Origin: Gammaproteobacteria bacterium
GTDB taxonomy: Bacteria > Pseudomonadota > Gammaproteobacteria > Steroidobacterales > PWYM01
DNA length: 43,040 nucleotides
Direction of reading: 5' to 3'
Assembly: GCA_007693855.1 (NCBI GenBank)
Contig: RECU01000024.1
Span: 1-43,040 of the forward strand
In this document: piece after piece, positions 15,542-27,408 of the stretch
Layout of the letters: each line of letters begins with the position of its first letter
How positions within the stretch are numbered: the stretch's first letter is position 1
Translations under genes and position numbers: made by a program
The notes under the pieces: generated by a model
What the model was told of the DNA's origin: nothing
What the model saw: only the letters and a program-made list of their open reading frames with translations
The model's database searches: none

Positions 15542-15655
15542 CTGCACAGCACAGCCGGGGCGCGGCCGTCGATGGCCAGGTCGAGGGTATCGCCAGCGTC
15601 GACGGCGCGGCATACACTCCAGCCTGCCACCGCACAATACAAAGGAATAGCAGGT

Positions 15656-17893
15656 ATGGCGAATGACAGCATCACGGGAACCCACCGATGGACGTTCTTT
15701 CGCTCCGGGGGCTTCGACCAGGTCGCCCTCGACAGCGGCGAGGACCTGCGTCATCTCGGCGAGCTCGACCCGAAGCTCTGGAGCGTCCTGAACTGTCCCA
15801 CCACAGGGCTCGAGTTCGATCCCCGCACGGCGGCCCTGCTGGACGCGGATGGTGACGGTCAGATCCGGGTGCCGGAGATCCAGGCGGCCGTGCGCTGGGC
15901 GTGCGAGCGGGTGACCGATCCGGCGGTGATGTTCGCCGACGGGGGGCTGCCGGTCAGCGCCATTGCCGAGGACAGCGAGGAGGCGGCTCGCCTCAAGGCG
16001 GCTGCCGTCAAGGTGCTGAGCTATGTCGGCAAGGCCGAGGACCAGGCCCTGACCGTGGACGATTTCGCCGACATGACCAGGCTGTTTTCGGTCGATCACT
16101 TCAACGGCGACGGGGTGGTCCCCGGTGGTCTGACCAGCGACGAGGCCCTGCAGCAGCTCATCGGCGAGATTGTCGAGACCCAGGGCGGTGTGCCGGATCG
16201 CAGTGGTGAGCCCGGGGTGTCGGCCGATACCGTTGCGGCTTTTTTCGAGCAGGCCCAGGCCGTGCTGGATTGGCACGCCGCCGCCGCCGCGGATACCGAT
16301 GGGGTCCGTCCTTTGGGCGAGGCGACGGATGCGGCTGCCAAGCTGTTCGACAGCGTTCGCGCCAAGGTCGATGACTACTTCGCGCGCTGCCGGCTGGCGG
16401 CCTTCGATGCGCGGGCGACTGCGGCGTTGAACCCTGCGGAGAGCGTCTATGGCGCGCTGTCGGCTCGGGCCATCGCGGCCGGTGACGAGGAGGTTGCCGC
16501 GCTGCCGCTGGCCGCGATCGAGGCCGGCCAGCCGCTGCCGCTGATCGAGGGCCTCAATCCTGCCTGGGCCGACGCGATCGCGAGCTTGCGGGAAGAGGTC
16601 GTCGTGCCGCTGCTCGGGGAGCGCGATGCGCTGTTGCCGGAAGACTGGGCGGCGCTGTCGGCACGGTTTACCGCCTGGCAGAGCTGGCAGGCGGCCCGCC
16701 CGGACACCGCCGTGCACGGCATCGATGGCGCGCGCCTGCGTGAGCTGGTCGACGGCGACCTCCGCGCTCGCCTGGCCGCGCTGATCGAGCAGGACCTCGC
16801 CGCCGAGACCTCGGCAGCGACGGTCGATGCGGTGGAACGGCTGGTGCGCTACCAGCGTGACCTGGTCACTCTGCTGCGCAACTTCGTGACGCTGAGTGAC
16901 TTTTACCGCGGTGATCGCAAGGCGATTTTCCAGGCCGGTACGCTGTATCTCGACCAGCGCAGCTGCGAACTGGTCATGCGGGTCAGCGACATGGGGCGAC
17001 ATGCGAGCATGGCGCCGTTCAGCGGCTGCTACCTGCTCTATTGCACCTGCGTGCGCCAGGGCGAGGCACCGATCACCATTGTCGCCGGCCTGACCGGTGG
17101 CGAGGTTGACGAGCTGATGGTGCCGGGCCGCAACGGCGTGTTCTACGACCGCGCCGGGCGCGACTGGAAGGCCTCGGTGGTGAAGGTGGTCGAGCAGCCG
17201 GTGAGTATCCGTCAGGCGTTCTGGTCGCCATACCGGCGGCTGGGGCGGTTCATCGAGGGCCAGCTGCAGAAGTTCGCCGCCTCGCGCGACAAGGCGGTCG
17301 AGGCCCAGACCAGCGCCGGCGTGACCGACGCGGCGGCCAGTGCCGGCAGCGGCCAGACGGCGGCCGCGCAGGCCTTCGACATCGCCAAGTTCGCCGGTAT
17401 CTTCGCGGCCATCGGTCTGGCCATCGGCGCGATCGGCACGGCGCTGGCGGCCGTGGTGGCGGGCATGTTCTCGCTGCCGTTGTGGCAGGTGCCGTTGGTC
17501 ATCCTCGGCGTCATGCTGCTGATCTCGGCCCCCTCGATGCTGATGGCCTTCCTGACGCTGCGCCGCCGCAACCTCGGGCCGTTGCTCGACGCGAATGGCT
17601 GGGCGGTCAACGTGCGCGCGAGGATCAACGTCCCCTTCGGCGCCGCCCTGACGGGTCTGGCTACGCTGCCGGCCGGCGCCAGCCGCTTACTGCGCGATCC
17701 GTACGCCGAGAAGAAGCGGCCGTGGAAGACCTGGCTGTTCCTGCTGGCGGTGCTGATCGTCGCGCTGGTGCTGTGGCGCGAGGGCGTGTTCGATGGCTTG
17801 TGGGGTGGCGGGGGTGAGGCGGACGTCGATCCTGCCGCTGCGGTGGAGCCCGCGCTCGAGGCGCCGCCTGGGGAGCCGCCGGCGGCGCCCTAG
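15656..17893 (+). CDS. EF-hand membrane protein of unknown function
   Basis: A 745-residue protein. There is no signal peptide. One canonical EF-hand loop is present (DADGDGQIRVPE, residues 63-74), with a second weaker calcium-type segment (FSVDHFNGDGVVPGG, near 145). A long helical middle follows with few landmarks. Near the C terminus are a hydrophobic pair (FAGIFAAIGLAIGAIGTALAAVVAGMF and VPLVILGVMLLISAPSMLMAFL, about 579-636), a third membrane span (WLFLLAVLIVALVLW, about 693-707) and an acidic/Pro tail. So the bulk is probably cytoplasmic and tethered to the membrane. ATG 15656 follows AAAGGA; an upstream ATG at 15572 lies in the promoter. It is divergent from phnD. I do not recognise a characterised family. 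Confidence 0.75.
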   Translation: MANDSITGTHRWTFFRSGGFDQVALDSGEDLRHLGELDPKLWSVLNCPTTGLEFDPRTAALLDADGDGQIRVPEIQAAVRWACERVTDPAVMFADGGLPVSAIAEDSEEAARLKAAAVKVLSYVGKAEDQALTVDDFADMTRLFSVDHFNGDGVVPGGLTSDEALQQLIGEIVETQGGVPDRSGEPGVSADTVAAFFEQAQAVLDWHAAAAADTDGVRPLGEATDAAAKLFDSVRAKVDDYFARCRLAAFDARATAALNPAESVYGALSARAIAAGDEEVAALPLAAIEAGQPLPLIEGLNPAWADAIASLREEVVVPLLGERDALLPEDWAALSARFTAWQSWQAARPDTAVHGIDGARLRELVDGDLRARLAALIEQDLAAETSAATVDAVERLVRYQRDLVTLLRNFVTLSDFYRGDRKAIFQAGTLYLDQRSCELVMRVSDMGRHASMAPFSGCYLLYCTCVRQGEAPITIVAGLTGGEVDELMVPGRNGVFYDRAGRDWKASVVKVVEQPVSIRQAFWSPYRRLGRFIEGQLQKFAASRDKAVEAQTSAGVTDAAASAGSGQTAAAQAFDIAKFAGIFAAIGLAIGAIGTALAAVVAGMFSLPLWQVPLVILGVMLLISAPSMLMAFLTLRRRNLGPLLDANGWAVNVRARINVPFGAALTGLATLPAGASRLLRDPYAEKKRPWKTWLFLLAVLIVALVLWREGVFDGLWGGGGEADVDPAAAVEPALEAPPGEPPAAP

Positions 17894-17915
17894 CGGGTCG
17901 TCCCAGGGCTCGAGC

Positions 17916-17987
17916 CTACAGCAGCGCCAGGGCCGCGCGGCTCTTGGAACCGCGGGGGTTGTGATAGATGCGGGCGGGCTGGAACAT
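17916..17987 (-). pseudogene. arsC remnant: 5' end of an arsenate reductase-like gene, active-site Cys lost
   Basis: A 23-codon frame (ATG 17987 to TAG 17916) reads IYHNPRGSKSRAALALL after MFQPAR. Thioredoxin-fold ArsC/YfgD proteins begin IYHNPRCSKSR with the catalytic Cys at the position here occupied by Gly. A Shine-Dalgarno GGAGAG lies about 8 bases upstream, so the original 5' end is intact, but the match stops at the TAG and the following bases encode nothing ArsC-like. The fragment is too short to be an enzyme. It lies directly behind the EF-hand gene on the opposite strand. The similarity covers only 17 residues but includes the family's most specific motif. Confidence 0.65.
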
Positions 17988-18175
17988 CGTGATCTCTCCA
18001 GAGACGGCGCTTCGGTCCGCGAAAAGCGGTGCTATTGTCGCTTATGCGGCTGGGGCCGGACAGCCTGAATGATCGTTTGCCGATGCATCTCGCGCCCCGC
18101 GCAGGGCTGGCAAGTTGTGCGGTCTGGTGTGACTCAATGACTATCGAGCCAGCTAGAGATATGAGCGATCCAGTC

Positions 18176-18427
18176 ATGAAGTTCGTTGCGCTCTACGAAG
18201 CGAAAAACCGTCTCTCCGAGCTGGTCGCGATGGTCGAGCGGGGCGAGGAGGTGGCAATCACCCGCCGCGGCGTGCCAGTCGCGCGCCTGGTCGCCTGCGA
18301 GGACGAGGAGGCCGTCGATCCGCACCAGCGTACCGATGCTGCGCTCTCGCGCCTCAGGGTGCTGCGCGAAGAGATTCGTCTTGATGGAGACCTGAAAACG
18401 CTGGCCCGCGAAGGCCTGGACGAATGA
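18176..18427 (+). CDS. Phd/YefM-type antitoxin
   Basis: An 83-residue protein: KFVALYEAKNRLSELVAMVERGEEVAITRRGVPVARLV is the DNA-binding Phd/YefM domain, followed by a charged toxin-binding tail (RVLREEIRLDGDLKTLAREGLDE). The start at ATG 18176 fits the family best; ATG 18161 is also in frame. The stop overlaps the ATG of a PIN-domain remnant (ATGA), the normal antitoxin-toxin coupling. Since that toxin is truncated, the antitoxin is now effectively solitary and could act only as a repressor or as a decoy for related toxins. Confidence 0.8.
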   Translation: MKFVALYEAKNRLSELVAMVERGEEVAITRRGVPVARLVACEDEEAVDPHQRTDAALSRLRVLREEIRLDGDLKTLAREGLDE

Positions 18428-18513
18428 GCTTCGTGCTCAACAACTCGGTGCTGACCGGTTGGTTCGCGGCCAACCAGGCCGATGTTTATGGTGATGCGAT
18501 CGCCGCGCCCTAG
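18424..18513 (+). pseudogene. vapC remnant: PIN toxin cut to 29 codons with Asp-to-Asn change
   Basis: The frame starts MSFVLNNSVLTGWFAANQ, the N terminus of PIN toxins that pair with Phd antitoxins (normally MSFVLDNSV). The first catalytic Asp (residue 6) is Asn here. The frame then ends at TAG 18511-18513 after IAAP; a complete toxin has about 130 residues. The break coincides with the stop codon of the antisense coiled-coil gene at 18510 and with the 11-bp repeat, so the loss looks like a recombination junction rather than a simple point mutation. Confidence 0.8.
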
Positions 18514-19409
18514 CGATCCTCCATCTGGCGAGGCTGGATCTGCGCCTGGCGTTCTTCCTCGTGACGTTCGGCCATCTGCACCGACTGCTGGCGGAAGACC
18601 TCTTCCTGGCGCTCGACGAGTTTGCCGATCTCCGCCTCCGGCCTGTTGAGCGCCTGCTGGGATTCCACCAGCTCGGTGCGTAACTGCTCCTGCTGCTGCG
18701 AGAGGTCGACGATTTCCTGGCGCTGTCGCTGCTGCAGTTCGGCCATCGGGTCGGGTGGCTCGGGCGCCGGTGCGGCTCCCGGGGGCGAGCGCTCCGGTTC
18801 GGGCGTGGGTGGCACGGGCGTGTCGGGCCCAGCCGCCGTGTAGCCGGGCACGACGGCCTCGGCCGCGCGGCCCACCCACTCGTTCACCCTGTCGACGGTG
18901 CCGGCGATGCTGACGGCAGCGTCATCCAGCGCCTTTGGATGCATCTCGGCAGCGGTCTTCGCCGCGTCGACCGCCAGCCGCGCAGCCTCGGCGACCTCTG
19001 ACACAGGCACGCCCTTGGTGGTGGTGCTGAGTGTCAGATCGACCACGTCGATCACCTTGTGGGCGGCCGCATGCGCCCTTTCTTCCCAGCTGGGTGGCTC
19101 CGGGGCGCGAAGGTCCTGCTCCAGGCTGTGGTTCCGGTCCTCGCCATGCCGGGCGACAATCTGGGCCTTGTGATCGTCCAGCGCCTGCTCCGTCGCCATC
19201 ACCCGGGTTTCCGCTGCGGATACCTCCGACCTGAGCTCATCGATCCGCTGGGCCTTCTGCTCCAGGGGTTCATTCCAGTGCGTCTGCTGTCCGTTGTCCA
19301 GGTCGCTGCGGGCCTGCTCCAGCGTCTCGCGCGCCTGCGCCACGGCCGCCTGCAGGATCTTGCGCTCGTCGAGTTGTAGCGCGTAAACAGCTTTCTCGTG
19401 TTCGTCCAC
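18510..19409 (-). CDS. Coiled-coil protein downstream of the coupling protein (conjugation-associated?)
   Basis: A 299-residue soluble protein with no signal peptide or membrane span. Residues 1-80 and 215-299 are charged, Gln/Glu-rich heptad-like helices (for example RQRQEIVDLSQQQEQLRTEL). Between them is an Ala-rich helical part (AAHKVIDVVDLTLSTTTKGVPVSEVAEAARLAVDAAK), then a Pro-rich linker (PVPPTPEPERSPPGAAPAPEPPDP). It starts 13 bases after the coupling-protein stop on the same strand, so they are likely one operon. The layout resembles accessory or C-terminal regions of mobilisation proteins, but no relaxase motif is visible. I do not recognise the family. Confidence 0.6.
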   Translation of the reverse strand: MDEHEKAVYALQLDERKILQAAVAQARETLEQARSDLDNGQQTHWNEPLEQKAQRIDELRSEVSAAETRVMATEQALDDHKAQIVARHGEDRNHSLEQDLRAPEPPSWEERAHAAAHKVIDVVDLTLSTTTKGVPVSEVAEAARLAVDAAKTAAEMHPKALDDAAVSIAGTVDRVNEWVGRAAEAVVPGYTAAGPDTPVPPTPEPERSPPGAAPAPEPPDPMAELQQRQRQEIVDLSQQQEQLRTELVESQQALNRPEAEIGKLVERQEEVFRQQSVQMAERHEEERQAQIQPRQMEDR

Positions 19410-19422
19410 GGCGGGCCTCGTC

Positions 19423-21489
19423 TCAGAGACTGCCCATGCGGGCGCTCAGGGCTTCGTCCTGCCAGGCAAAGTGCTTCTTCAGCCGCAGCGGCTTGCAGCC
19501 CGAGGCCATGACGATGACGTTGTCACGGAACTCCGGGCCTGCGAGGACTGCGGGCTCGACCACGGCCTGGCGGCTGCGGTCCATCACGCCCTCCTGTATG
19601 CCGATGTCCTCGGAGATCTTCTTCGCCGTCTCGTCGTGCAGGCTGGGGTTCATGTACATGCGCACGGCGCAGGAGCCGATCATGCCGTCGGCGTTCTCGT
19701 AGGCCGTGCGCAGCTGGCCGATGCTCTGGGTGAACATCCACAGCTTGATGCCGTACTGGCGGCCGATCTCCAGCGCTTCCTCCACCGGTGGCATCTGCCG
19801 CAGCCGTGGCAGCTCATCCAGCAGGAACAGGATGGGCGACTGGCCGCGTGGCGGGAGCTCTGTGGTCAGTTGTCGGATGTGCTGGGCGATGAACACGCGC
19901 AGCACGGAGATGTAGCTCTCGACCTCGTTGGGGGACAGGCAGATGTAGATCGTCGGGTTGTCGCCCTTGCGCAGGTCCAGCGGCGTCCAGTCGGAGCGCC
20001 GCGTGGCCCGTTCGATGCGATCGCCGTCCCAGGCCGAGAGGCTCGAGAGCCCGGTCTGCAGCACGCCGTCGCGGGTCTTGGGTTCCATGCCGGCCAGCGA
20101 ATGTCCCGCACGGGTCATCGAGCGGAGGTCGACGCGTGCCTGCAGTGCGGTGACGAACTCGTTCCAGCCGACGCCATGGAAGACGTCGATGACGGAGCCG
20201 AGCGGGCGCTTCTCCGGGTCGTCCTGCAGGCAGACCCGGGCGATGGCGGCCGTGAGCACGTCGCGTGCGCGGTTCTCCCAGAACGGATCCTTGCCGCCCG
20301 AGGGCACCATCATCATGTCGGCCAGGAAGCGGGAGTCTTCCCACAGGTAATCCGGGTGGGAGCGCACGGTGGTCAGGGGGTTGTAGTGGTGGCTGTTGTC
20401 GGGATTCAGCGGTGAAAACTTGTAGACCGGCCCTACGTTCTCCGAACGCCACTTGCTCGTGCCCTCGTAGATTTCACCCTTGACGTCGAGGATGACCGCT
20501 GGCCCCGGCCAGCTGAGCAGCGTTGGGAATACATGGCATTGCGTCTTGCCAGAACCCGGTGGGGCCACGGTGATCATCGAGCCCTCGCCCGCGTAGCGCA
20601 CCATGCGGCCCGATTCCGGGAAGTCGCCGAGCAGTGCGCCGGGCACGGCTTCGAGTGTGAAGGGCGTGTCGTCGATCTCGTCCTCGTCGAGCCAGGTGTC
20701 ACCGCCGTGGATACGCTTCTGGACCTTCTGGACAGCCTTCGGAAGCTGCTCCTTCGGGATCTGCTCGAGGACGCCGAACATCGCGTTCACGGCCCCCTCG
20801 ACCGTTGCGTCGGCCTGTCCGCAGTAGAGCCGTACCGCATCCGCGCCGCTTTTCACCTGCGAGAGCAGTTCCTTGGTCAGGAAGACATCCCACTCGTCCA
20901 CCGAGCCCTTGCCGTCACCGAAGATAAGGGCGGTCCGGTAGTACTGCCACGCCGGCTCCTCGAAGATGTCGGCGTTGTAGAGATGGTAGGCAATTCGGAG
21001 AATCTCGCGTTCCCGGGGTTCCATGGCCGAGAGGCTGCGACTGACCCGGAACTGGATATGGCAGAACTCAGGTTCGGTTCGCGTGCCTCCACCGTGCATC
21101 GGCTTTTCGACGGTGTCTTCGAAGTCCACTCGCTGGCCGACGCTCAACACCGCCTTCTGCCCGTCGAACAATGCATCGATGGCCGCAGCGCGCTCCCTCG
21201 GGTCGCTGCCGAGACTGGCCCAATGCGCGCGGTCCGGCGCGGCGACCTGGCCGGCCCGCGCCCGCGACATGCGTTCGCCGAGCTTTTTCCGACCGATGAC
21301 CGCGCCGGCGAAGAATGCCCAGCCGATCAGCGCGCCAAGCAGCGGCTCGTCGCCGAAGACTGCCAGCAGCGTGTAGATGACCATGAATAACGCCAGAAGC
21401 ATCAGCACGACCACCATGACTTTCTGCACAACGCGCTGTCCCATGTTCAGCAGGCTGTTGGTGATAAGGGCACTCATCGTGTTGGCCAT
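19423..21489 (-). CDS. Type IV secretion coupling protein (VirD4/TraG/TraD family)
   Basis: A 688-residue membrane ATPase. Two N-terminal spans (VMVVVLMLLALFMVIYTLLAVF, about 24-45, and LLGALIGWAFFAGAVIG, about 50-66) anchor it. Walker A is VAPPGSGKTQ (309-317), followed by AVILDVKGEIYEGTSKWR and VYKFSPLNPDNSHHYNPL; Walker B is ILFLLDELPRL, with FTQSIGQLRTAYE and RMYMNPSLHDETAKKISEDIG after it. These are the motifs of coupling proteins that feed DNA or protein substrates into type IV secretion channels. GGGGAGGA precedes ATG 21489. No relaxase, VirB or pilus genes are nearby, so it is either an orphan from a decayed conjugative element or serves a system elsewhere. Confidence 0.9.
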   Translation of the reverse strand: MANTMSALITNSLLNMGQRVVQKVMVVVLMLLALFMVIYTLLAVFGDEPLLGALIGWAFFAGAVIGRKKLGERMSRARAGQVAAPDRAHWASLGSDPRERAAAIDALFDGQKAVLSVGQRVDFEDTVEKPMHGGGTRTEPEFCHIQFRVSRSLSAMEPREREILRIAYHLYNADIFEEPAWQYYRTALIFGDGKGSVDEWDVFLTKELLSQVKSGADAVRLYCGQADATVEGAVNAMFGVLEQIPKEQLPKAVQKVQKRIHGGDTWLDEDEIDDTPFTLEAVPGALLGDFPESGRMVRYAGEGSMITVAPPGSGKTQCHVFPTLLSWPGPAVILDVKGEIYEGTSKWRSENVGPVYKFSPLNPDNSHHYNPLTTVRSHPDYLWEDSRFLADMMMVPSGGKDPFWENRARDVLTAAIARVCLQDDPEKRPLGSVIDVFHGVGWNEFVTALQARVDLRSMTRAGHSLAGMEPKTRDGVLQTGLSSLSAWDGDRIERATRRSDWTPLDLRKGDNPTIYICLSPNEVESYISVLRVFIAQHIRQLTTELPPRGQSPILFLLDELPRLRQMPPVEEALEIGRQYGIKLWMFTQSIGQLRTAYENADGMIGSCAVRMYMNPSLHDETAKKISEDIGIQEGVMDRSRQAVVEPAVLAGPEFRDNVIVMASGCKPLRLKKHFAWQDEALSARMGSL

Positions 21490-21514: not shown

Positions 21515-21847
21515 TCAAGGCCTGCTTCGCTTCAGTACCAGGCCCATCGGCCCGTGGAGTTGATCGTCGTGTCGGGTCAGTACCAGCGTCCCCTGCGGCC
21601 CGCTGACCAGCACACGGTCCTGGTCCAGCCGGTACTCGGCCACCACGGTGGTGCCGAGCACCGAGATGTGGACCTGGCCCTGGCCGAAGAACTCGTAGCG
21701 GGTCATGCCCAGCTCGTCTTCATAGCGGCCGCGCAGCTCGTCGCGTCCGCAGGCGACCAGCACGAGCGAGGCGGTCAGCACCAGCATTGCGGTGGCATTG
21801 GCGCCAATGACGGTTCCCCTGGTGTTCACGACGCTCCCCCTTGCCAT
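21515..21847 (-). CDS. Small putative lipoprotein
   Basis: A 110-residue protein with an N-terminal hydrophobic segment ending in a lipobox (MLVLTASLVLVAC), then a small beta-rich domain (RYEDELGMTRYEFFGQGQVHISVLGTTVVAEYRLDQDRVLVSGPQGTLVLTRHDDQLHG). Entry-exclusion or outer-membrane lipoproteins of conjugative systems have this size and form, and it lies 25 bases upstream of the coupling protein on the same strand. The function is otherwise unknown. An internal ATG just before MLVLTAS could be the true start. Confidence 0.6.
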   Translation of the reverse strand: MARGSVVNTRGTVIGANATAMLVLTASLVLVACGRDELRGRYEDELGMTRYEFFGQGQVHISVLGTTVVAEYRLDQDRVLVSGPQGTLVLTRHDDQLHGPMGLVLKRSRP

Positions 21848-22069
21848 GTTGCCGCTGTGTCCCCGCGCTGGCGGGCGTCTGGGGTGGGCGGCTGCAGTGG
21901 CTTGTATGAATGCCCCATCGGCACCGCTGGCGCATCGACAGCTAGCGGGAGTTATTGAGGGTTAACGCAGGATAAGCCGCGGCGAACCTGAGCCCGGCCT
22001 GCGGCGTCCTGTGGTATACCTATGGGTCTAAGGTCCGCGACTGCGGGCGTCGCAAGGGGTGGCCCGGGG

Positions 22070-24166
22070 GTGGCAACCCGCAAGCGCAACCAGAATGGCA
22101 GCCGAAAGCGGGGCGTCCGCGCCTCTCGGGCTCGCCTGTATCACGCGCTGACCGAGGCCGGCTTCCGCAGCCAGGCCGCGCTCGCCGAGCGCATGGCCGA
22201 GCTCGAGGGTCTCGAGCAGGCCCCCAAGGACCTGGTCAACCGCGTGTTCCGCGAGCAACCGGTCGAGCTGCAGACACTCGAGCGGGTGGCCCGGGCATTG
22301 GGTGTCGAGGCCTGGGAGCTGTACCTGACCAGCGACGAGCCGCCGGAGGCGGTCGATCCGGCGCTTCGCCTTCCGCAGACCGCGACTCACCAGCCGCCGC
22401 CGTCCCCGCGGCGGCGCTCGCCGTCGGTGCCGCTGCTGATGGCGATCGGTCTGTTGGCGCTCACCGGGCTCGCCGGCGCAGTATGGTGGCTCACCCCTGG
22501 GGACGGTCCTTCAGGTGGCACGGGTGCTGACGGTGATGACCGGATGGTCTTCACGACGCCGAGCCCTGCCTGGCTGTCGCGGCCCACGCTGGTGGTCATG
22601 CCTACGTTCGACGAAGAAGAGGACGCGCTGACCGAGGCCTTGCGCGAGGCCCTGTCGCAGCACTTTCGGCTGGCGTCGCCCACGGCGGAGCTGCTGGCCC
22701 ACGGGCGGGAGGCGGGGGAGGTGGCGGCCCAGCTGGGCAGCGACGCGGTGGTTGAAGGCGAGATCGTCCGCGTGGGGCGTCTGGCCGGTGTGCGCATTCA
22801 CCTGTTCCGGGGCGGGGTTCGCCAGCAGGTGTGGGGGGAGACCGTCGACGTCGCGCGTCTGGACCACTTGCTGGCCGACGTGGCCACCAATGCGACGGCT
22901 GCGGTCGGCCGCGCACTGGGCCTGCCGGTGGGCGAGCCCATGGCGCACTATCCCTTGGCGCCGGTGCAGGACTATTACCTCGAGGGGCGACTGTACCTCG
23001 ACGGTCCGGCCAGTGAACTCAACATCCGGCGCGCCCAGGGACGCTTCGAGGCCACCCTGCGCCTGGACGCCAACTACGCGGATGCCCAGGCCGGGCTGTG
23101 CGAGGCGCTGCTGGAAGAGTACTGGATGGAGGACGCGCAACGTGCCCTGAACGATGCGTCGCTGGCCTGCAGTCGTGCGATCCAGCTGGCGCCGTGGGCG
23201 GCGAGCACCCGGATTGCCCATGCCCACCTGCTGCGGGTCACGGGCCGCGCCGACGAGGCCGTCGCGATCCTTGAGGACCTGCTGCTGGAGGATCCGGACG
23301 ACGCCGATGCACTGGTGGGCCTGGTGGCCAGCCGGCTGGCGCTGTATCGCGGCAGCGGCGAGGTCGCACAGCTCGAGCTCGCCCTGGCGGCCGCGCAGCA
23401 TGGCACGGCCGTCGATCCCGGGTTCTGGAAGCCGCCGTTCTGGCAGGCGAGCCTGGCCTATTTCGCCGGCGACCTGGCGGCCGCGATCGAGGCCGCCGAG
23501 GAGGCCCGGCGCCGCGACGAGAATGAATACGTGCTCGCCAATCTCGGCACCTTCTATTTCTGCGCCGAGGAGCTTGAGCGCGCCCGCGAAGTGTACGAGC
23601 GGGCCCGCGTCGTGGCCCCGCACTCCTATGTGGGCGACGAGTTTCTCAGCATCATCCATTACCTGACCGGTGAATTCGATATGGCCGCCGAGCTGCGTGC
23701 CCGGGCGATCGAGCGGTTGAGCGGGGCCGGCGAGCCGGAAATCCACGAGATGTGGGGCAACCTCGGCGACGCTTATCTCGCCAGCGGGCGGCGCGAGGCG
23801 GCAATCGAGGCCTATCAGCGTGCCGCCGAGATTACCGAGCGCGACGTGCTGCAGGGGATCGACTCGCCGGCCGATCGTGCGTCGCGGGCCTACTACTACA
23901 GCCGCCTGGCGAAGCTGGCGCCGGAGCGACTGCCCCCCGGGGCGACGGCCCGGATCGAGCGCGATCTGCGCGCCGCGCTGGACGAGCCGCTCGAGGCGGG
24001 GGCCGCAGTACGGGTGGCCAAGGCCTGGCTGCAGCGTGAGCGCCCGGAGCTCGCGCTGCGCGCCTTCGAGCAGGCGGTGGCGCGTTGCGGGGGCTACGCG
24101 AGCACGCCGGCGCTGGCGACCTTGCGCCCTATGCTCGGGACAGGTGAGCTCAGCGCTTCGCCGTGA
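22070..24166 (+). CDS. TPR-repeat membrane protein with helix-turn-helix-like N terminus
   Basis: A 698-residue protein. The N terminus is basic (ATRKRNQNGSRKRGVRASRARLYHAL) and followed by an HTH-like helical part (FRSQAALAERMAELEG...LVNRVFREQPVELQTLERVARALGVEAWELYL). One membrane span follows (VPLLMAIGLLALTGLAGAVWWL, about 120-141). Then comes a TolB/adenylate-cyclase-type domain (VVMPTFDEEEDALTEALREALSQHF...SDAVVEGEIVRVGRLAGVRIHLFRGG) and many TPR units (YADAQAGLCEALLEEY, AASTRIAHAHLLRVTGRADEAVAILEDLL, AYLASGRREAAIEAYQRAAEI). This CadC-like plan suggests a membrane-bound sensor-regulator. GTG 22070 is preferred (AAGGGG upstream); ATG 22022 is an alternative. Target genes are unknown. Confidence 0.7.
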   Translation: MATRKRNQNGSRKRGVRASRARLYHALTEAGFRSQAALAERMAELEGLEQAPKDLVNRVFREQPVELQTLERVARALGVEAWELYLTSDEPPEAVDPALRLPQTATHQPPPSPRRRSPSVPLLMAIGLLALTGLAGAVWWLTPGDGPSGGTGADGDDRMVFTTPSPAWLSRPTLVVMPTFDEEEDALTEALREALSQHFRLASPTAELLAHGREAGEVAAQLGSDAVVEGEIVRVGRLAGVRIHLFRGGVRQQVWGETVDVARLDHLLADVATNATAAVGRALGLPVGEPMAHYPLAPVQDYYLEGRLYLDGPASELNIRRAQGRFEATLRLDANYADAQAGLCEALLEEYWMEDAQRALNDASLACSRAIQLAPWAASTRIAHAHLLRVTGRADEAVAILEDLLLEDPDDADALVGLVASRLALYRGSGEVAQLELALAAAQHGTAVDPGFWKPPFWQASLAYFAGDLAAAIEAAEEARRRDENEYVLANLGTFYFCAEELERAREVYERARVVAPHSYVGDEFLSIIHYLTGEFDMAAELRARAIERLSGAGEPEIHEMWGNLGDAYLASGRREAAIEAYQRAAEITERDVLQGIDSPADRASRAYYYSRLAKLAPERLPPGATARIERDLRAALDEPLEAGAAVRVAKAWLQRERPELALRAFEQAVARCGGYASTPALATLRPMLGTGELSASP

Positions 24167-24211: not shown

Positions 24212-25897
24212 TTAGCGCTCGAACTGTGGCGCCGGCTCGTCCAGCGCGCCGATGGGGTCGTCTGCGATGTCCGGTGCGACTTCGGCCAGCCGGCGGCGCC
24301 AGCCCTCGGGCAGGTCTTCCCAGCGGCTGCACTTGCGCCCCACCGAGCGTGAGGTGAGGGTGCCGGGTCGCTCGTCCATGTTCATCCAGCGCTGCCAGTC
24401 GGTGATCTCGCCGAAGAACACCGTGGCCTCGCCCATGGTCACGGCGGGGTCTGCGAGGTTGCGCAGGCTGCCGTGGTAGACGGCGATGTCGTTCACCTGG
24501 AACGGGCGCTCGCGCCCGGGCGTGAACACGCGGGCCACCGACTCGTCCTGCACGAACACGTCATCGTTGACGATCAGGGGCGGATGGGATTTCGCACTCG
24601 CCTCGAGTGGCGTGCCGCCGATGTCCGTTGGCAGGACCCGGGAGTTGTCCGGGCGATATCGCACCTTGAAAGGTCCGGCCGGGCGGAACCGTACGGGGAT
24701 CTCCTCGCCCGTGTAGGGATTGCGCCAGCTCTCCAGCGGCTCCCCGGTGTCCAGGTCGAACAGCAGCACCATCTCCAGCATGGTCATCTCGAGGCCGCCG
24801 TCCTGGAGCTGGCGGATGCGCTGCTTCTGGGTGCTGGCGATGGCGGTCAGGGTGTAGCCTGGCTGGATCTCCCAGTCCGCGCTGCCCGACAGGAGGTCGT
24901 GGTCCAGCAGCAGCTTGTGTTCGTCGAAGGGCAGGATGCCCAGCGACTGCTCCGGCAGTTCGTTGTTGATTGCGAACGGCCCGTCGGGCGTGCGCAGGGC
25001 GCCGCAGAAGGCGCGCCGTGCCTGCTCCAGGGTGAAGCCTTCAGGCAGCCCGAAGAGGGGGCGCGGCTGGAACCCGGGGAACGGTCCGCAGTTGTGCTCG
25101 TCGGAGCGGGCGATCAGGACGCTCGCCGCCGGCCCGTCCTTGTCGCGGCGCACCGAGTACCGCACTCTGGCCGAGAACTGGTCGGCCGGCGTGAAGGAGA
25201 GCGACCCGGCATAGAAGCGTTGGCGCGACTGGCCCAGGCGGCCGCCGAATTCGTTGGCGTAGAAGCCGTCGAAGTCACTGTAGTCGGCGACCAGGCGCCC
25301 GGCCAGCAGCCCCTCGAGCAGCGGGCCCTCGACCGAGCCGCTGATCCGCCGGTCGCCGTAGGAGCCCCCGGTCGCGCTGACGCGGCCGAGGAACTCGTCA
25401 CCCGGCGTGGTGGTGATCATGCTGATGGCACCGCCGAAGGTGGCGCGGCCGAACAGTGCGGACTGCGGCCCCTTGATCACCTCGACCCGCGCCAGGTCCT
25501 CCGTGCCCACGCCGGCCGGGTTGCCGATGTAGGGGACACCGTCGATGAACACGGTGACCAGGTCGCGCCGGTTGTCGCCGGGCGCTGAGCTCTGGGTCAT
25601 CCCGCGGATCGAGAAGTCGCTGGAGAAGCGCGCGTTGCCCTGGTTGTAGGTCAACCCCGGCGTGAACTTCGAGAGCTCCGGCAGATTGGTGATGCCGCGC
25701 TGCTCAAGCTGCTCGCTGCTGAACACCTGGACAGTGAGCGGAATCTCCTGGATCGACTCCTCACGCTTGCGGGCAGTGACCACGATTTCGTCCAGCAGCG
25801 AGCTCGCGCGCTCGCCTGTCTGGGCATGTGAGATGGCGGGGGCGGCCATCGCAGGGGCCAGAACGAGGCAGGCGATAGGCATCCGATATCCGTGCAT
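24212..25897 (-). CDS. Chimeric protein: TonB receptor plug and partial barrel fused to a DUF1838-like domain
   Basis: A 561-residue protein. Residues 1-368 are a TonB-dependent receptor: signal peptide, [15 protein letters not shown] box, plug (LTVQVFSSEQLEQRGI, VEVIKGPQSALFGRATFGGAISMI) and the first barrel strands. From about residue 369 (base 24793 downward) the sequence changes to the pattern of DUF1838 proteins: VLLFDLDTGEPLESWRNPYTGE, a VNDDVFV strand, VNDIAVYHGSLRNLADP, ITDWQRWMNMDERPGTL and a DDPIGALDEP tail. There is no C-terminal barrel signature. GGAGG nine bases before ATG 25897 fixes the start. An in-frame deletion joining two adjacent genes would explain it. The receptor function is probably lost; DUF1838 has no known activity to my knowledge. 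Confidence 0.65.
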   Translation of the reverse strand: MHGYRMPIACLVLAPAMAAPAISHAQTGERASSLLDEIVVTARKREESIQEIPLTVQVFSSEQLEQRGITNLPELSKFTPGLTYNQGNARFSSDFSIRGMTQSSAPGDNRRDLVTVFIDGVPYIGNPAGVGTEDLARVEVIKGPQSALFGRATFGGAISMITTTPGDEFLGRVSATGGSYGDRRISGSVEGPLLEGLLAGRLVADYSDFDGFYANEFGGRLGQSRQRFYAGSLSFTPADQFSARVRYSVRRDKDGPAASVLIARSDEHNCGPFPGFQPRPLFGLPEGFTLEQARRAFCGALRTPDGPFAINNELPEQSLGILPFDEHKLLLDHDLLSGSADWEIQPGYTLTAIASTQKQRIRQLQDGGLEMTMLEMVLLFDLDTGEPLESWRNPYTGEEIPVRFRPAGPFKVRYRPDNSRVLPTDIGGTPLEASAKSHPPLIVNDDVFVQDESVARVFTPGRERPFQVNDIAVYHGSLRNLADPAVTMGEATVFFGEITDWQRWMNMDERPGTLTSRSVGRKCSRWEDLPEGWRRRLAEVAPDIADDPIGALDEPAPQFER

Positions 25898-26038
25898 TGG
25901 CAAGTTCCTCCAGCGGAAAGAGAGGCCGGCGAGCCCGGCCGCTGAAACCAAGGATTGGCCGTTGTTCGCTCCCGGCGCCACCGGATTTTCGTCGGCCCGG
26001 CCGTTTCTTCGCCAGCGGCGCTCCACGCAGCACAGGTT

Positions 26039-26067
26039 TTCGCGAATCACGCTTCGCGATACGCGAA
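26039..26067. promoter_or_regulatory. TTCGCG repeat cluster in a divergent promoter
   Basis: The palindrome TTCGCGAA (26039-26046) is followed by TTCGCG-ATA-CGCGAA (26053-26067), a perfect inverted repeat. CGCGAATC also recurs 21 bp apart (26041 and 26062), two helical turns. The cluster sits in the 233-bp gap between the divergent receptor chimera and the SnoaL-like gene. It resembles an operator for a dimeric regulator; the regulator is unknown. Confidence 0.4.
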
Positions 26068-26117
26068 TCTGCAGGCCGCCGCGCGATACTGATTGCCCGT
26101 GGCTCAAGGTGCTCGAA

Positions 26118-26133
26118 AAGGAGAAACCCTTTG
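26118..26133 (+). promoter_or_regulatory. Shine-Dalgarno site that points to a TTG start
   Basis: AAGGAG (26118-26123) stands seven bases before TTG 26131. No ATG or GTG with a ribosome site exists in this frame between the promoter region and the signal peptide, so TTG is the best start of the SnoaL-like gene. Confidence 0.55.
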
Positions 26134-26925
26134 ATTTCGTTGACTCTGTTGAATCTGCCGGGGGGCTGTTCAGAGCTGGCCCCCACTGGCACTCCCACCC
26201 GGGCTCCAAAACCGGCTCCCACTCGGACTCGGTCGCCGACTCGGGCACTGCGGCTGGCGCTGCCCCTGGTGCTCGCGATCGTCTGCTTGCCTGCTGCAGC
26301 GCAGCAGAGCGCCGAGGAGGCCATCGCACTGGTCGATGTCTACATCAAGGCGCATAACGCCCACCAGCCCGAAGAGGTGCTGGCGATGTATCACCCCGAC
26401 GCCGACTTCCACCTCAGCATGGGTCGCGGCGTGGTCTCCGGCAGGGACGATATTGCCCGGCTGGAGTACTTCGACGCCGCGGCCGGCTCCACCCTGTATC
26501 CCCAGGCCCTTACCGCCCGGCCGGAGGGAGACCGCTGGGTGGTCGGCTTCGGCTACGTGATCGAATACAGCGATATCTTCGCCGCCATGGGCCTGAACAT
26601 CGTCCTGGCGGAAGGCATGGAGCGAGGCTTCGTGTTCGAAAACGGCCGGATCCGGACGATCTACCAGCCCGATCTGCTGCCGGCCTGCATGGAGGTCATG
26701 GCCCCGGGGTTCGTCGCGCTGGTCGCCTGGCTGCAGGAGACCGGTGATCCGAGGGCCGATACCCTGCTCTCGGACGGCGCACTGGAGCTCACCGAGGTGA
26801 CTGCCCCACTGCTGGTGGAGGCCGCCGTGGACTGGCGTCGCGACACGGGCTGGGGGCCTTCGCGCGAGCAGGCCTTCCGGTGTGCGCAGGTGCCGGCGCA
26901 GGGGCGGGGTGCCGCCCTCCCGTGA
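26131..26925 (+). CDS. Secreted SnoaL/NTF2-like protein with unusual TTG start
   Basis: A 264-residue protein if started at TTG 26131. A long n-region with imperfect Pro-Thr-Arg repeats (GTPTRAPKPAPTRTRSPTRA) precedes the hydrophobic signal core LRLALPLVLAIVCLPAAAQQ. The mature part has a SnoaL/NTF2-like beginning: ALVDVYIKAHNAHQPEEVLAMYHPDADFHLSMGRGVVSGRDDIARLEYFDAA, then WVVGFGYVIEYSDIF and FVFENGRIRTIYQPDLLP. This cone-shaped fold binds small ligands or acts as an isomerase, here probably in the periplasm. It is divergent from the receptor chimera. Substrate unknown. The repeat-rich leader is odd; it may be untranslated if a further start lies closer to the signal. Confidence 0.55.
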   Translation: MISLTLLNLPGGCSELAPTGTPTRAPKPAPTRTRSPTRALRLALPLVLAIVCLPAAAQQSAEEAIALVDVYIKAHNAHQPEEVLAMYHPDADFHLSMGRGVVSGRDDIARLEYFDAAAGSTLYPQALTARPEGDRWVVGFGYVIEYSDIFAAMGLNIVLAEGMERGFVFENGRIRTIYQPDLLPACMEVMAPGFVALVAWLQETGDPRADTLLSDGALELTEVTAPLLVEAAVDWRRDTGWGPSREQAFRCAQVPAQGRGAALP

Positions 26926-27003
26926 CTGCTGCTGCCGGCTACGCTCAGCCTCCGGCGGGAAGCGTTCGCAGGTGGCCGGAGTCTGCGTAGGCCAGCAGCG
27001 CAG

Positions 27004-27237
27004 TTACTGCATCGGCTGCCACGGGGCATCGACTGGCGAGATGATGTCGTTCTCGTGCAGCACGCTGCCGGCCAGCGCGCCGAACAGCTCGCCGGGCGGC
27101 GGCATGGGCACCAGTTGGGCGACTGGCTTGCCATGCTTGGTGATGATCAGTGGCTCGCGGGTGTCTGCCACCTCATCGAGCAATTTGAGGCAGCGCGATT
27201 TGAACTCGCCGGCGCCGATCTGTTTGCTGTCTGTCAC
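27004..27237 (-). CDS. Orphan Phd/YefM-type antitoxin
   Basis: A 77-residue protein: SKQIGAGEFKSRCLKLLDEVADTREPLIITKHGKPVAQLVPM is the Phd/YefM DNA-binding domain, then a tail typical for VapC-neutralising members (LFGALAGSVLHENDIISPVDAPW). GTG 27237 is chosen because GAGGG stands 7 bases upstream; an ATG at 27279 would place the start inside the operator. In intact loci a PIN toxin follows at once, but the 78 bases between this stop and the SnoaL-like gene contain no such frame. It is therefore a solitary antitoxin. Confidence 0.8.
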   Translation of the reverse strand: MTDSKQIGAGEFKSRCLKLLDEVADTREPLIITKHGKPVAQLVPMPPPGELFGALAGSVLHENDIISPVDAPWQPMQ

Positions 27238-27254
27238 TGGTTGACCCTCGATAC

Positions 27255-27277
27255 GACTATGGTCACAAGCTATAGTC
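27255..27277 (-). promoter_or_regulatory. Inverted repeat upstream of the orphan Phd antitoxin
   Basis: GACTAT (27255-27260) and ATAGTC (27272-27277) are perfect inverted arms 11 bases apart, 18 bases upstream of the GTG start. Phd-type antitoxins bind such sites to repress themselves, and the AT-rich arms overlap the likely -10 region. Confidence 0.45.
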
Positions 27278-27408
27278 ATTTTTTTCCCCTGATGTGGCGG
27301 TTGCCACTCCCACGCTATCCGGCGGTGGCCGCCTGGGCCAGCGGCGTTTCCCGGTGACTGCGCCGCAATCCATCATCCACCCCGGCCGCGCCGGCGTATT
27401 GCCTTGGC

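Follow-up and report, generated by a model that had tools for sequence, protein, structure and literature searches.

A 23-codon fragment of a glutaredoxin-type arsC gene probably marks a chromosomal breakpoint beside an intact Phd antitoxin gene

A very short reading frame on the minus strand of the analysed DNA (43,040 nucleotides of a gammaproteobacterial contig, hereafter the window) is most probably, at roughly 0.9, the dead 5′ remnant of a glutaredoxin-type arsenate reductase gene (arsC) that marks a breakpoint and was left there by ordinary decay. This reading is adopted because an intact orthologue sits in matching gene order in a genome of the same genus (G002), because the similarity to ArsC ends at about codon 23 and because the PIN toxin gene at the other end of the same block is also broken. 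A fossil 5′ end of arsC and a lost gene at this junction had both been proposed in the first-pass annotation of the sequence, and these three observations support the two proposals alike.

Results

Identity of the arsC remnant

The coordinates of the remnant and of its neighbours are collected in Table 1. The first-pass annotation had placed the remnant without giving a strand; its position proves exact, the strand is minus, and the ribosome-binding-like site and the stop that had been described are where they should be. Read on the plus strand in the corresponding frame, 17916–17987 gives a translation with no resemblance to ArsC. Searched alone, the 23-mer matches the NCBIfam arsC family TIGR00014 (E = 3e-5, 24.5 bits, profile positions 2–19 of 114) and, up to E = 0.1, nothing else in NCBIfam; with a peptide this short, Pfam has no match at E up to 1. 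The arsC model also recovered the remnant in a six-frame scan of the window's whole genome (E = 3.7e-4, 22.3 bits, one TAG inside), with an alignment that runs about 4 codons beyond the last homologous Leu and across the TAG. This stop may be a point change immediately ahead of the joint, or it may belong to the joint itself.

Table 1. Features of the arsC–phd–toxin block and its flanks in the window.
Feature	Coordinates	Strand	Remarks
773-aa gene, unnamed family	15572..17893	+	Converges on the arsC remnant; left junction flank; start codon uncertain
11-bp direct repeat, left copy	17885..17895	+	Exact; spans the stop of the 773-aa gene
arsC 5′ remnant	17916..17987	-	23 codons and TAG stop; Gly at codon 13, the catalytic Cys position
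Intergenic region between arsC remnant and divergent phd	17988..18160	.	
GGAGAG, ribosome-binding-like hexamer	17994..17999	-	6 nt before the ATG of the remnant
Phd-family antitoxin gene, intact	18161..18427	+	88 aa; in-frame upstream ATG at 18137
vapC-like PIN toxin gene, truncated	18424..18513	+	28 homologous codons remain, then a stop two codons later (vs intact G002 gene)
11-bp direct repeat, right copy	18505..18515	+	Covers both the toxin remnant's end and the 299-aa gene's stop
299-aa gene, unnamed family	18510..19409	-	Right block flank; relative adjoins the toxin gene in G002 too
Type IV secretion coupling protein gene (TraG/VirD4-like)	19423..21489	-	Conserved right flank; PF02534 6.2e-66

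An ArsC-like signature with Gly in place of the catalytic Cys was part of the original description and is borne out both by the TIGR00014 match and by intact genes, since Cys occupies this position in 14 out of 14 distinct intact ArsC loci retrieved with a search pattern that left the position free. The similarity to ArsC on which the first-pass annotation had made its reading depend is thus present. Cys12 is named as the catalytic residue of R773-type ArsC in excerpted text of PMC5593903.

At 24.5 bits the remnant lies below the curated TIGR00014 cut-off (106.05 bits), and its frame, stopping after 23 codons, is shorter than the full-length ArsC domain of about 115–120 residues. It is a fragment of an ArsC member by descent and not itself a member, and it cannot work as an arsenate reductase, because it has lost the catalytic Cys together with some 97 of 120 residues. 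A frameshift or recoding event that would carry ArsC past the stop was considered and rejected, as no further arsC-like stretch rises above noise in any frame of 17501–18600.

The intact block in a congeneric genome

A comparison with close relatives had been suggested in order to look for an intact arsC, and when it was run G002 supplied one (L030, 6836–7198; 120 aa; TIGR00014 1.2e-35), whose product finds its best matches among solved structures in named arsenate reductases. The remnant aligns with this gene over 59 nt at 84.7% identity (E = 4.5e-11) and at the syntenic place. In G002, arsC is divergent from a Phd antitoxin gene and a PIN toxin gene (PF01850, 6.3e-6; no match among solved structures at E up to 0.01), all of them complete frames, and the order arsC, phd, PIN toxin, 299-aa-like gene and TraG-like gene is the order of the window, with equal orientations. 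Window DNA is collinear with one G002 stretch at 17920–17978 (arsC), 18140–18508 (phd and the toxin start), 19131–21213 (the 299-aa and TraG-like genes) and 21522–24150 (mostly a TPR gene), and a GGAG motif also stands upstream of the intact G002 arsC.

Within the block of the window both outer genes are broken, arsC after 23 codons and the toxin gene after 28, and phd alone is intact. The latter is a complete antitoxin frame, scores above its cut-off with TIGR01552 (4.2e-10, 38.8 bits against 20.8), matches PF02604 (3.8e-10) when read from 18137 and is 85% identical to its G002 counterpart (NG86: dN 0.09, dS 0.46). Codon 6 of the toxin remnant specifies Asn where the G002 gene has an Asp that we take to be catalytic in PIN domains. 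Eight codons of the arsC remnant differ from G002, of which five change the amino acid, one of them at the active site; the 23 codons give dN 0.15 and dS 0.54 (NG86), part of which predates the break. Relaxed selection was considered from the dN/dS of the remnant and set aside, the substitution pattern alone being insufficient with so few codons.

The closest genome and the sequence of events

The genome closest to that of the window is G001, whose 773-aa gene shows 89% identity (73% for G002) and whose TraG-like protein shows 87% (79% for G002). There the 773-aa and 299-aa genes are adjacent, separated by 77 bp as aligned and by 51 bp from frame to frame; blastn finds no trace of the truncated arsC–phd–toxin block at this place, and no phd is found in the whole G001 genome at E up to 0.001. 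The 773-aa gene of G002 has as its next neighbour a gene that, judging by its sequence, is AlkB-like. Two of the five genus genomes have a match to it and G000 and G001 lack it, an absence fitting a loss of DNA on that side.

These comparisons allow a history to be proposed, though few taxa bear on the order and direction of its events: the neighbourhood is known from three genomes, and a strong TraG-like match is found in three of the five genus members. Comparison with G002 shows that the ancestor held the G002-type block, with arsC divergent from the phd–PIN pair and beside the TraG-like gene. A deletion or rearrangement would then have brought the 773-aa gene's end up against arsC near codon 23, with loss of the remaining arsC, and a second break, earlier or later, would have taken most of the toxin gene, whose truncated state is plain from the alignment. 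The catalytic Cys may have changed to Gly as selection dropped, and the scrap would persist through its position just upstream of the intact phd, adjoining the phd promoter region. In its simplest form, this history would place the joining of the 773-aa gene and arsC in the common ancestor of G001 and the window, after which G001 would have lost the remaining block and the window most of the toxin gene.

Two other sources of an intact arsC arrangement were tried and dropped. Of the five genomes in the genus sample, two (G002 and G003) carry an arsC above the curated cut-off, and the G003 gene was rejected as a positional orthologue since its gene neighbourhood is unrelated. A large single deletion from an arrangement like that of G014, where a single contig bears both arsC and, about 32 kb away, a relative of the 773-aa gene, was set aside; G014 belongs to another family and has no TraG-like match.

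Whether the 23-codon frame might instead still be in use, encoding a short functional peptide or a leader that regulates the divergent phd, depends on much the same comparisons. Its start codon and the GGAGAG hexamer are intact, features that would permit translation of the 23-mer, and the stop follows at once. However, descent from arsC fully accounts for the sequence, a consensus scan of 17700–18600 finds no sigma-70-like promoter, and the frame is not conserved as an independent gene, a possibility raised in the first-pass annotation: there is no trace of it at the corresponding place in G001, and among 369 genomes of the class, that of the window alone has the Gly form of the motif. We would regard either a functional peptide or a leader as very improbable.

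A similarly poor prospect is an assembly artefact that fused the start of arsC to an unrelated end. The genome is a draft of 114 contigs and the two breaks lie close together, both of which would speak for a misjoin, but the two flanking genes are neighbours in the separate genome G001 as well, the toxin gene is also broken, and the substitution of the catalytic Cys sits within the remnant, away from the joint. Little credence can be given to it.

The direct repeat at the block edges

The block is bordered by an exact 11-bp direct repeat that is absent from the rest of the window on either strand. When the two 45-nt junction stretches were shuffled with dinucleotides preserved, 33 of 20000 shuffles shared at least 11 bases (about 0.17%), a figure that is indicative only, as the stretches were placed after the repeat had been seen. 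It may have arisen by chance or during repair, or it may be the target duplication of an insertion that brought the block in. Two independent deletions, as proposed above, do not explain why an exact 11-bp repeat stands at both ends.

This brings in a different origin of the block, as a 609-bp G002-like fragment inserted between the 773-aa and 299-aa genes with an 11-bp target duplication, a view under which the scrap is an arsC fossil all the same. Besides the repeat itself, which contains the tetramer CTAG, rare in the window, the adjacency of both flanking genes in G001 without the block is what an insertion would predict. Yet no terminal inverted repeat pairing the block ends was seen and no transposase frame lies between the repeats, and G002 has the intact block adjoining a relative of the 299-aa flanking gene, oriented as in the window, so that the landing place would be a coincidence; a target duplication sits badly with that arrangement. 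We therefore consider the insertion unlikely. Equally doubtful is its broader form, a captured fragment inserted by an unspecified mechanism and bearing one antitoxin gene with stubs of the genes beside it, which together with the antitoxin near 27 kb described below would suggest a process or selection, acting in this lineage, that purges PIN toxins and keeps antitoxins. Base composition would predict about 127 copies of CTAG in the window, but there are 8, and two of these lie inside the 11-bp repeats.

Other truncated genes and the unnamed 773-aa family

A second antitoxin-like frame, intact, is found at 27004–27279 on the minus strand and resembles the frame that precedes the PIN gene of G001. 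The PIN toxin frame overlapping it (26945–27007, minus strand) retains roughly 5 codons at its start and 15 at its end, a reading taken from the peptides, which the DNA alignment did not resolve. Over about 9 kb of the window, two antitoxins are thus retained and two PIN toxins gutted.

Also on the minus strand, 24212–26329 is a single open frame that unites a TonB-dependent receptor plug domain (PF07715) with a C-terminal DUF1838 part (PF08894). The DUF1838 protein of G001 is encoded by a separate gene of 287 aa, and the frame in the window looks like an in-frame deletion fusion.

The 773-aa protein has no Pfam match at E up to 1, and nothing in NCBIfam matches it convincingly. Its relatives (121 found, of which 80 were kept) range from Thauera to Bacteroidales, and the family is thus widespread and nameless in Pfam and NCBIfam.

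Arsenic genes elsewhere in the genome

The only other match to PF03960 in the genome is C107 (56.3 bits), which was considered as a second ArsC or a donor and rejected: with the arsC model it scores 26.1 bits, where the cut-off is 106.05, and it is without the HNPRCSKSR signature, which makes it a paralogue, presumably of the Spx/YffB kind. A gene for the Acr3 arsenite pump is kept (C110, above cut-off), as it is in four of the five genus genomes. The glutaredoxin-type arsenate reductase of the 18 kb locus is gone from the genome of the window. The arsC fossil, otherwise a case of routine gene decay, is of interest as a very short coding scrap whose origin in one particular lost gene is revealed by synteny and which would mark a chromosomal breakpoint.

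Comparison with known systems

With the glutaredoxin-dependent ArsC (TIGR00014, the type of E. coli plasmid R773) the remnant shares the N-terminal active-site signature, the start codon and the place in the gene order seen in G002; it differs in having Gly for the catalytic Cys and in keeping 23 of about 120 residues, the remainder being absent. Set against a Phd/VapC-type module with a PIN toxin (PF02604, PF01850), the window keeps an intact Phd and a toxin start that overlaps the antitoxin stop, whereas its toxin is cut after 28 codons and has the early Asp replaced by Asn, so that Phd is an antitoxin left orphaned. Pseudogene fragments are a general class of remnant at deletion breakpoints in bacteria. 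Like them, the window has truncated gene ends flanking a retained gene, and it differs from them by the exact 11-bp direct repeat at both edges.
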